Assembly: GCA_020426085.1 (NCBI GenBank)
Contig: JAGQQP010000050.1
Coordinates: forward strand, 1 to 13,791
Source: Planctomycetaceae bacterium
GTDB taxonomy: Bacteria > Planctomycetota > Planctomycetia > Planctomycetales > Planctomycetaceae
Reading direction: 5' to 3'
Length of the DNA stretch: 13,791 nucleotides
Positions 4,506 to 6,363 of this stretch are shown here, one piece after another. The translations under genes were made by a program, and so were the position numbers. Each line of letters begins with the position of its first letter. Within the stretch, counting starts at the first letter, position 1. Under the pieces are notes generated by a model. The model worked only from the letters and a program-made list of their open reading frames with translations, searched no databases and was not told the origin of the DNA.

Positions 4506-4578
4506 GGGGGATTAGCTCAGTTGGGAGAGCGTTTGGCTGGCAGCCAAAAGGTCACCGGTTCGAGCCCGGTATCCTCCA
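4506..4578 (+). tRNA. tRNA-Ala (anticodon GGC)
   Basis: A full cloverleaf folds by eye. The acceptor stem is GGGGGAT (4506-4512) with ATCCTCC (4571-4577). The D stem is GCTC/GAGC (4515-4518 with 4527-4530). The anticodon stem TTTGG/CCAAA (4532-4536 with 4544-4548) encloses loop CTGGCAG, with anticodon GGC at 4539-4541. The T stem ACCGG/CCGGT (4554-4558 with 4566-4570) encloses TTCGAGC. The third acceptor pair is G3:U70, the classic alanine identity element, which independently confirms the anticodon call. The discriminator is A (4578). CCA is not encoded (CTC follows), so it must be added by the CCA-adding enzyme. Confidence 0.97.
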
Positions 4579-4766: not shown

Positions 4767-5306
4767 TTATTTCTGTTGTACATTGGGAGTGGGTGATGGT
4801 TGTGGTTCAGGGATTACTTTCTCTTCTCCTGGCACACAACCCGGACACTCCAGATCGGTACCTTCGATCACGTCTTCCTGAATGGTACCTGGTTTACAGA
4901 TCTCACATGGCTGATCCACCACTTCTGGTTCCAGCACCAGATCGCGGGAATAACTGCCTTGAGTCCCTCCAGTATTGCCACCATAGTAGCCGCCATTGCC
5001 CACAACATTACAGCTGTTATATCCCAGAACAGCTCCGCCGCGCGGATAATTGAAATAACACGATCCAGAATAGAAGGCTTTAAATTTCCCGAAGTAACTG
5101 CGCGAATAATATCCACTGTAAGAATAGCTCTGATTCAATGAAGAAATCGCGGTCCCGATATCGGAAAACTCACTGACGACAGCCGTCTGGACATAACTTA
5201 AACCAACGATCATCGCCAGGACCGCTACGGTCAGGATGATAACCAGTTCAGCCGAGAGAACGAATCCACCTTCATCGTTCCAGAATTGTTTTACAAATTG
5301 ATGCAT
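4767..5306 (-). CDS. Flp-pilin-like secreted/membrane protein with cysteine-rich tail
   Basis: I choose the Met at 5306 (179 residues) because AAGGAG lies 6 nt before it; an upstream ATG at 5360 has no such site. The N-terminus has a short charged leader (MHQFVKQFWNDEGG), then a single hydrophobic helix (residues 15-36), like the class III signals of Flp/Tad pilins and pseudopilins. The expected glutamate is Glu20, but it lies +6 or +7 from the two glycines rather than +5. After a helical stretch (VSEFSDIGTAISSLNQS) comes a Tyr/Gly/Ser-rich region (61-120). The acidic, proline-rich tail has two C-x2-C-x-P-G units (Cys134/137 and Cys154/157); Cys83 and Cys99 could form another pair. It probably sits in the inner membrane or in a pilus-like fibre. 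No Tad assembly genes are adjacent. Pilin identity is inference; a small anchored surface protein is the alternative. Confidence 0.65.
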   Translation of the reverse strand: MHQFVKQFWNDEGGFVLSAELVIILTVAVLAMIVGLSYVQTAVVSEFSDIGTAISSLNQSYSYSGYYSRSYFGKFKAFYSGSCYFNYPRGGAVLGYNSCNVVGNGGYYGGNTGGTQGSYSRDLVLEPEVVDQPCEICKPGTIQEDVIEGTDLECPGCVPGEEKVIPEPQPSPTPNVQQK

Positions 5307-5365
5307 GGGAAGCTCCTTTTTTAGCTTGATGTAACACGTTTTTGATTGAGTAGCCTGCATGGTCA

Positions 5366-5388
5366 GCGCTGGAAAATCACTCCAGCGC
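5366..5388 (-). promoter_or_regulatory. Perfect hairpin in the leader of the pilin-like gene
   Basis: GCGCTGGA (5366-5373) and TCCAGCGC (5381-5388) form a perfect 8-bp GC-rich stem with a 7-nt loop, 60 bp before the chosen start codon. There is no T tract, so it is not an intrinsic terminator. It may be an operator or an mRNA-stabilising 5' stem. Confidence 0.45.
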
Positions 5389-5398
5389 GTTGCGGAAT

Positions 5399-5446
5399 CA
5401 ACAGCACAATCAACTGGCCTGTTGACCGGGTCGATTACTGCTGTTG
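5399..5446. repeat. Nested inverted repeats upstream of the pilin-like gene
   Basis: CAACAGCA (5399-5406) is matched by TGCTGTTG (5439-5446). Between them CAACTGGCCTGTTG (5411-5424) is a near-palindrome with two T:T mismatches. The CAAC/GTTG words therefore recur four times in 48 bp. The position, between the pilin leader and the hairpin cluster, suits a regulator site, but no regulator can be named. Confidence 0.35.
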
Positions 5447-5457
5447 CACGATTAATT

Positions 5458-5745
5458 GTGTTTCTCTCAGGGACATTTCCCTGTCACTGACACTGTTGTT
5501 CGATTGAAAAACGCCGATTGGCTAAAGCGGGAGAGGAAAGTTTCTCAGGCTTTCCTTTTCTGGTTTTCGAGGCGGAACTCAATTACCTCACTCACCATAA
5601 AATCAGGGTTAATACCAGAAGTTCTCTCCGCTTCAGTCAATCAGTCATCGGTGGTCTCTCAGGTCACCGATTTGTGTAACGGTCTCTCAGGTCGTCACAC
5701 ACTCTCTCTATGCGATTGATCGCCCCTGTCGCGTCAGACAGGAGC
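5458..5745 (+). ncRNA. Candidate structured RNA: hairpins sharing a T(C/T)TCTCAGG loop
   Basis: Four places carry the same 9-nt word as the loop of an inverted repeat whose stem differs each time. Hairpin b: 5530-5540 with 5550-5560 (11 pairs), loop TTTCTCAGG. Hairpin c: ATCGGTG (5647-5653) with CACCGAT (5665-5671). Hairpin d: GTGTAACG (5674-5681) with CGTCACAC (5693-5700), one mismatch. c and d each add a closing G:T and have loop TCTCTCAGG. Hairpin a (5458-5476) is weaker and competes with CAGGGA/TCCCTG (5468-5473 with 5478-5483). Between b and c, 5569-5579 pairs with 5620-5634 around a CTCT bulge. A further stem, CCTGTC/GACAGG (5725-5730 with 5737-5742), ends the cluster. Most wobble pairs are G:U only on the plus strand, favouring a plus-strand transcript. 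An 87-codon frame (5456-5719) crosses the area but has no ribosome site or protein-like composition. No convincing promoter or terminator was found. Confidence 0.4.
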
Positions 5746-6363
5746 AGTTATCTGTTGTATTAAACAACCGGCATATCCGGCCTTTTCAGTAACACCGGAA
5801 TAACCGGCATGCTTGTCACATTAGGCAATATGCGTGCCATGCATAAATTCGTTTTCAGAAGCAAAACCAGGACAATCGACATAAACCATACAATAGAAAT
5901 AACTTATAAATTCGGAATAAAACTACTTCCCCCAAACAGAGCATCACGAAATTGAGGAAGAGCCCTGGAATGTTCAGATTGCTTTACAACGACTTTAACG
6001 TTTCTGATAAGAATTCTGATCGTATCGATTATGACGATCAGGTGGGAAATGCAGCAGAAAGGCTCAGTTTGAGGATCACGAGTGGGGAATGGACCTGCTG
6101 GGTCAGGAATGTAAGCTAATTCAACGACTTACAACTCGTATAAATCTTGAAGCATAGAACAAATTCAGTCTGGCCAGAAATACGATTTCCATCCTGGAAC
6201 TGACTGAGAGCCTCACCTCATTCCACCTTAATTCATCAAAACTTTCACAGCACCCATCTTGTTCATCTTTACATGGGCGGTGGTTCATGACCAAAATACG
6301 GATCGGGGCCCATTTCAATTGAATTGGTCTAGCGCTCTAAGAGGCAGTTGAGAAAAGAGAACC
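5746..6363. other. Gene-poor stretch before the small lipoprotein gene
   Basis: No convincing gene of ordinary size lies here. The left part has four CCGG words at 5768, 5777, 5795 and 5804, spaced in multiples of 9 bp, with ACCGGCAT occurring twice. The middle is AT-rich (about 5840-5935). A 49-codon frame at 5970-6119 is listed separately. I found no convincing promoter pair or terminator. Confidence 0.5.
5970..6119 (+). CDS. Possible small protein, 49 residues, unknown function
   Basis: An ATG at 5970 opens 49 codons ending in TAA at 6117-6119. GAGGAAG at 5954-5960 is a reasonable ribosome site, 9 nt from the ATG. The product starts MFRLLYNDFNVSDKNSDRID, has an acidic middle (DRIDYDD) and two tryptophans near the end, and has no signal peptide or membrane helix. 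I recognise no family. An 8-bp perfect inverted repeat, CTGATCGT/ACGATCAG (6016-6023 with 6034-6041), lies inside the frame, so the sequence may be non-coding structure instead. Confidence 0.22.
   Translation: MFRLLYNDFNVSDKNSDRIDYDDQVGNAAERLSLRITSGEWTCWVRNVS

Follow-up and report, generated by a model that had tools for sequence, protein, structure and literature searches.

The hairpin-bearing region of the DNA analyzed here (a stretch of 13,791 nucleotides, hereafter the window) is most likely, to judge from sequence comparison, an RNA leader that precedes a pilin gene in a Gimesia planctomycete. At the level of sequence, the comparison establishes a hairpin of RNA type and the strand to which it belongs, its position ahead of the pilin gene, a promoter-like element, and a second element that displays the same loop. 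As far as these alignments go, the hairpins are real and conserved structures of RNA type, with the RNA on the minus strand of the window. An earlier note, made from the window alone, was right in counting on a regulatory RNA and in keeping a protein-binding array among its options.

Hairpins in the window

Read on the plus strand, the loop T(C/T)TCTCAGG occurs at 5463-5471, 5541-5549, 5655-5663, and 5683-5691, the four positions at which it had previously been placed. In the two strong hairpins, the corresponding minus-strand loop is GACCUGAGAGACC. Hairpin 1 (5672-5702, minus strand) presents this loop on a stem of GUGUGACG/CGUUACAC, and hairpin 2 (5644-5674, minus strand) on a stem of AUCGGU/ACCGAU. 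Both were taken into the hairpin model as 31-base stretches and therefore belong to its training set, and the model matches them with 41.2 bits (E = 6.8e-10) and 28.5 bits (E = 3.2e-6), respectively. Hairpin 3 (5535-5555, minus strand; GGAAAG-CCUGAGAAA-CUUUCC) has a shortened loop and forms a side arm of a branched domain (5514-5644, minus strand), which is closed by a stem of approximately 20 pairs in the consensus structure and is found in the genus only. The earlier description of three clear hairpins is thus upheld for the two strong ones, within 5644-5674 and 5672-5702, and is modified for the third, which is the 5535-5555 hairpin with a shorter version of the common loop.

The fourth site (5458-5476, minus strand; CCCUGAGAGA) is weak, as had been recognized, and variable within the genus. 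It competes with CAGGGA/TCCCTG, which pairs in its place in the minimum-energy folds, and it is probably not a hairpin of the GACCUGAGAGACC kind. A switch between this hairpin and the CAGGGA/TCCCTG pairing, as once suggested, would have the least conserved hairpin as its basis and finds no support. The folding energy of 5440-5760, singled out early on for comparison with shuffled controls, is better than that of all 100 dinucleotide shuffles on either strand (z = -4.14 for plus and -5.05 for minus).

Strand and covariation of the stems

Selection on RNA shape, with a common loop kept on changing stems, had been proposed from the window and is borne out by compensated stem changes. In 55 distinct hairpins compared over nine stem pairs, 82.8% of the 495 stem cells are paired, and both partners are altered in 178 cells (shuffled mean, 63.4). 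The covariation score of this set is 0.857, compared with 0.278 for shuffled sets and 0.150 to 0.208 for slid versions, and the number of stem pairs with a two-sided change (nine) is no greater than in shuffles, 434 of 500 of which reach nine. Pairing remains high in pilin leaders outside the genus (82.0% of cells in 53 hairpins from 41 script-called loci; shuffled mean, 59.5%) and in 12 pilin loci outside the model set (81.2% in 16 hairpins; shuffled mean, 60.5%; shuffled maximum, 67.4%). The loop itself is nearly invariant in the covariation set, which was collected with the loop as search pattern, so that its sameness between genera is partly built in.

The strand follows from the G:U pairs. 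Over 58 distinct hairpins with nine stem positions each, there are 59 such pairs when the minus (GACCUGAGAGACC) strand is read and 11 when the plus strand is, with 91 and 139 mismatches, respectively; with the genus removed, script-called pilin leaders give 51 G:U pairs on the GACCUGAGAGACC strand against 12 on the opposite one. The imbalance of 59 to 11 fixes the RNA as the GACCUGAGAGACC strand, minus in the window, which is the opposite of the earlier claim that G:U pairs favor the plus strand. Read from the minus strand, the loops are rich in purines and are therefore unable to serve as C/U-rich anti-Shine-Dalgarno loops, so that this suggestion fails together with the strand assignment. 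A plus-strand RNA with such loops is ruled out by the G:U counts and by the orientation of the hairpins to the gene and the promoter.

Conservation within the genus

A 400-base query matches 15 of the 16 other genomes of the genus, the exception being G006; L020, from the same search, was rejected as a chance match within a coding gene. In a minus-strand alignment of 15 distinct sequences, the conserved core measures 207 to 211 nucleotides, and the 14 others share 88.2 to 98.6% identity with the window; L012 differs by one extra base. The RNAalifold consensus for the genus consists of two loop hairpins followed by the branched domain. Of its 69 pairs, two have both partners changed, and one-sided exchanges at others preserve the pair.

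These sequences also bear on the possibility, named in the earlier note as something that would count against an RNA, that 5456-5719 encodes a conserved protein. Across 5507-5713, the part compared, indels of 1 to 2 nucleotides separate the 15 distinct genus sequences, their lengths are not constant modulo 3, and each of the six frames is interrupted in at least one row. Because the frames are broken and the lengths differ modulo 3, the open reading frame at 5456-5719 is not a gene.

The downstream pilin gene and the promoter-like element

The gene that follows the hairpins (4767-5306, minus strand; MHQFVKQFWNDEGGFVLSAELVIILT...) is assigned to the Flp-like type IVb pilins by the names that sources give to its homologues (Flp family type IVb pilin) and by a profile match at 5112-5306. 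The named sources of the close homologues are Gimesia species. Among four named Gimesia records, pilin identity is 60 to 88%, compared with 88.2 to 98.6% for the RNA core within the genus. The window protein itself has no Pfam or NCBIfam match at E <= 1; its first 65 residues give an Flp1_like line below the cut-off (E = 0.059), and among 12 related N-terminal parts, two give Flp1_like lines that are likewise below the cut-off (best E = 0.0029), with weak Flp_Fap lines too.

Of 41 family genomes, 35 match the pilin profile, each of them 3 to 20 times. In the genome of the window (G000; contigs C254, C729, and C796), there are 12 such matches, several of them close together. A hairpin match at E <= 0.001 is found in 19 of the 35 genomes with a pilin (hand count) and in one of the six without, G218, where it belongs to the lpxI-linked element described below. 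At the 30 best pilin loci, a hairpin lies within approximately 450 nucleotides upstream in eight and more than 1 kb away in two more. With 8 of 30 loci so equipped, the leader belongs to a minority of the pilin paralogues; where several lie in a row in G024, G029, G036, and G059, the first is the one preceded by it.

Thirty of 48 leaders have GGAG close to the start, as for an ordinary Shine-Dalgarno sequence. A repeat of the loop end, GAGAGACC, was also seen before the start codon in 3 of the 48 (L054, L055, and L093) and at 0 of 60 control starts; as GGAG occurs at only nine of these 60, many control starts are probably not true ones, and the GAGAGACC comparison is weak.

Upstream of the hairpins, and recognized by its sequence, is a sigma54-type promoter-like element. 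The -24/-12 candidate of the window (TGGCACGCATATTGCC; 5824-5839, minus strand) scores 11 of 12 against the sigma54 consensus, and the usual spacing would place the expected transcription start near 5812 on the minus strand. Among 48 leaders, seven of which come from the genus, a GG-N10-GC element upstream of the first loop and on the same strand scores at least 8 out of 12 in 44 and at least 9 in 33. Shuffles reach these scores in 15.5 and 4.7% of cases, and the opposite strand reaches them in five and one of the 48.

Surrounding the promoter is a degenerate array of 9-bp repeats resembling CGATTGTNC, seen at approximately 5760-5875 (minus strand) in the window and in 39 leaders. Mean identity is 0.363 at a lag of 9 and 0.352 at a lag of 18, with 0.23 to 0.27 at other lags and approximately 0.25 in shuffles. 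The array covers the -24/-12 element and continues into the expected transcript.

Distribution across the family, class, and phylum

We find the hairpin almost confined to one family. An exact 13-mer that includes the loop, searched in 397 genomes of the class, is present in 97, and the reversed pattern gives far fewer matches in the window's own family. The 60 family loci that we examined represent most of the places of the 13-mer there (G230, G340, and G299 are among those left out). Twenty-eight of them lie upstream of a pilin-like open reading frame on the same strand (27 called by script and L096 by eye), and seven follow an lpxI-like open reading frame (L072, L075, L082, L083, L086, L109, and L110). 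In L085 and L095, leader-like hairpins occur but no pilin is recognizable, and L088 holds a separate sRNA-like element described below. The best stem reaches at least 4 pairs in 34 of the 35 pilin and lpxI loci (3 in L059). In 20 of the remaining 22 loci it is at most 3 (7 in L064 and 5 in L066), which indicates that the 13-mer elsewhere mostly lies outside hairpins.

At E <= 0.001, the R1 hairpin model has matches in 64 of the 150 family genomes (a hand count that includes lpxI-linked and training loci); it reports 99 at E <= 1, many of these at chance level. We inspected 20 R1 places outside the training set, taken from among the higher-ranking matches (left out were, for example, G230, G192, G093, and G020). 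A pilin lies downstream on the same strand in 12, L163 is an lpxI element, and L155, L157, L165, and L167 to L170 are without a pilin, the printed match at L165 being spurious. Phylum-wide, R1 matches 11 of 294 genomes at E <= 0.001. These comprise 10 of the 17 listed members of the family and one of the remaining 277, a figure that assumes no family member among the 263 unlisted genomes; this sole match outside the family is G572. Twenty-eight 13-mer loci outside the family were examined, with a stem of 9 in L023, 6 in L050, 5 in L039, and at most 3 in the other 25, and none of the 28 has a pilin (the printed match at L028 is unlike one). The L023 hairpin (L023:1480-1530; genome G207, family f3) thus presents the 13-mer on a stem of 9 pairs with no pilin downstream, which counts against strict confinement to the family.

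Among the loci examined, a leader with a pilin is found in 26 genera of the one family. Leaders carry one to three copies of the hairpin at varying spacing. The loop variants GACCTGAGAAACC and GACCTGAGACACC occur in one leader each, and upstream hairpins show a GAGAGAGAGACC-like variant loop in L054, L055, L069, L070, L092, and L093 and TGCCTGAGAGACC in L081 and L108.

An lpxI-linked element with the same loop

An sRNA-like element lies downstream of lpxI in L072, L075, L082, L083, L086, L109, L110, L114, and L163; among the lpxI-like open reading frames, Pfam LpxI was run on L072 only. Single-sequence folds, judged by eye, give it a closing stem, a CCCGC-loop hairpin, a GACCUGAGAGACC hairpin, and a C-rich tract around TTCACTTCCC, and most copies have a T-rich end or T run. 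The consensus structure of the model built for it (R2) holds the GACCUGAGAGACC hairpin only. R2 is strong in 9 of 150 family genomes from six genera, all nine being training loci, and beyond these it finds nothing in the 150 except a weak line in G355 (E = 0.088). The element is absent, by R2, from all 11 genus genomes searched, and it is present at 2 of 30 separately examined lpxI loci, a set to which the window's genome contributes only an incomplete lpxI. Genera g9, g62, and g72 have both this element and the pilin leader. Because G218 has the element without a pilin match, it cannot exist solely to act on the pilin leader. The loop recurs at L088:1409-1650, in another sRNA-like element that does not adjoin lpxI and that has a C-rich tract together with a terminator-like hairpin rich in GC.

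Relation to known RNAs

Searched against Rfam 15, the window returns only a tRNA at 4506-4578, and a relaxed search of 5300-5800 returns one chance-level line (E = 1.8). Ten further loci give no match up to E = 0.5, eight leader loci give, up to E = 0.1, a tRNA in L003 and nothing else, and Rfam matches none of the seven lpxI-element copies searched. In the literature, no title on this loop or leader appears among the matches listed.

Several known systems resemble the leader in part. CsrA/RsmE hairpins and the CsrB/RsmY decoy sRNAs share with it short hairpins, one loop on variable stems, and an occurrence in both leaders and an sRNA-like element. However, the loop here is without GGA, the sites are far upstream of the start, the partner protein is putative, and the sRNA-like element has a single loop copy and is found in few genera, unlike CsrB/RsmY-type sRNAs. 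The iron-responsive element likewise combines a common loop with a changing stem and occurs in the untranslated regions of various messages, whereas the present hairpin is bacterial, has a different loop, and comes in up to three copies. PyrR binds a CNGNGA hexaloop, which CUGAGA of the present loop fits on paper, but Rfam gives no match to that site even under a relaxed threshold, and the context is a pilin rather than pyrimidine synthesis. The put and EAR antitermination RNAs are also structured leader RNAs with hairpins, from which the present leader differs in having no clear excess of terminators downstream. Rhodopirellula-1 is a candidate structured RNA that one table line, giving no Rfam number, lists for both Proteobacteria and Planctomycetes (PMC2864571). 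It has in common with our element that it is a candidate listed for Planctomycetes, and it differs, by its description in that source rather than by sequence, in that our hairpin is found almost exclusively in a single family. We would class the element as a new family of structured leader RNA, itself a known kind, set apart from Rhodopirellula-1 by description only.

Discussion

We propose, at just under even confidence, that the region acts as a cis-regulatory pilin leader whose hairpins are bound by a putative RNA-binding protein. The pilin mRNA would begin at the sigma54-type promoter near 5830 and carry a minus-strand 5' leader of approximately 500 nucleotides up to the pilin start at 5306. 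The GACCUGAGAGACC loop would be the recognition site of a dedicated RNA-binding protein, which, once bound, may act on the stability or translation of the pilin message. The common loop, the free stems, the repeats per leader, and the reuse elsewhere give the element the look of a protein-binding hairpin, and a protein site would fit the use of the same loop in two unrelated settings. The called starts lie 125 to 455 nucleotides downstream of the loops, so that it is not obvious how the hairpins could simply block the ribosome site. In six genera, the sRNA-like element adjoining lpxI may take up the same protein through its hairpin and act as a decoy; given its absence from 11 genus genomes, a decoy would not be a general part of the system.

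The loop could instead pair with a trans-acting RNA, by kissing or antisense contacts, and alter the stability or translation of the pilin message in this way. We consider such pairing unlikely, although a purine-rich loop exposed in hairpins and much alike across genera would suit it, and the constancy of the loop counts little against it because the loop was the search pattern. In 12 of 16 genus genomes, however, exact copies of the 13-mer on either strand occur only in the leader; the exceptions are G002, G003, and G004, with one extra copy each, and G006, with one copy that is not in a leader. Control of transcription elongation by antitermination or attenuation, like that of put or EAR, appears improbable. 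Strong terminator-like sites do follow the hairpin in L021 and L166, and the window has a TTTTT after the branched domain, kept in 4 of 15 genus sequences, yet such sites between the last loop and the start are found in 5 of 48 leaders against 2.9 expected from shuffles. Attenuation was rejected in the absence of a clear excess over shuffles in these 48, and a terminator scan finds no intrinsic terminator between element and gene in the window leader.

Slightly less probable still is a riboswitch or other self-acting RNA, with the hairpins as part of a ligand site or fold. The highly conserved genus core and its branched consensus fold would agree with this, but between genera only separate hairpins are seen to be kept, in one to three copies at varying spacing, and an informal look noticed no common ligand core. 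CsrA typically recognizes a GGA core in a hairpin loop. Its binding to the leader, on the pattern of established Csr systems, is less likely, since neither GACCUGAGAGACC of hairpins 1 and 2 nor CCUGAGAAA of hairpin 3 contains this core, and the GGAG near the start in leaders is expected of an ordinary Shine-Dalgarno sequence. We therefore regard CsrA as very improbable, even though CsrA genes are reported (PMC12316311) to be enriched for sigma54 promoters in Planctomycetia. Least probable, and strongly disfavored, is a DNA-level element made up of binding sites or single-stranded DNA hairpins: hairpins are possible in either strand, but the G:U imbalance, the co-oriented gene, and the upstream promoter-like element all speak for RNA. 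Mimicry of 16S rRNA by the loop was tried and rejected, the longest word in common with one 16S gene being 8 nucleotides, a length that 31 of 200 shuffles reach.

To our knowledge, little is known of RNA-based control in planctomycetes. The element is frequent, tied mainly to one kind of gene, and accompanied by a clear promoter-like element, and it is therefore directly testable. A wider reading, which we regard as doubtful, is that of a family-specific post-transcriptional system in which a putative RNA-binding protein would read GACCUGAGAGACC in sigma54-driven pilin leaders and in some lpxI-linked sRNAs, joining surface pili to the synthesis of outer-membrane lipid A. If a protein does read the loop, this would constitute a new rule of RNA recognition, and the hairpin would be a ready bait for that protein.
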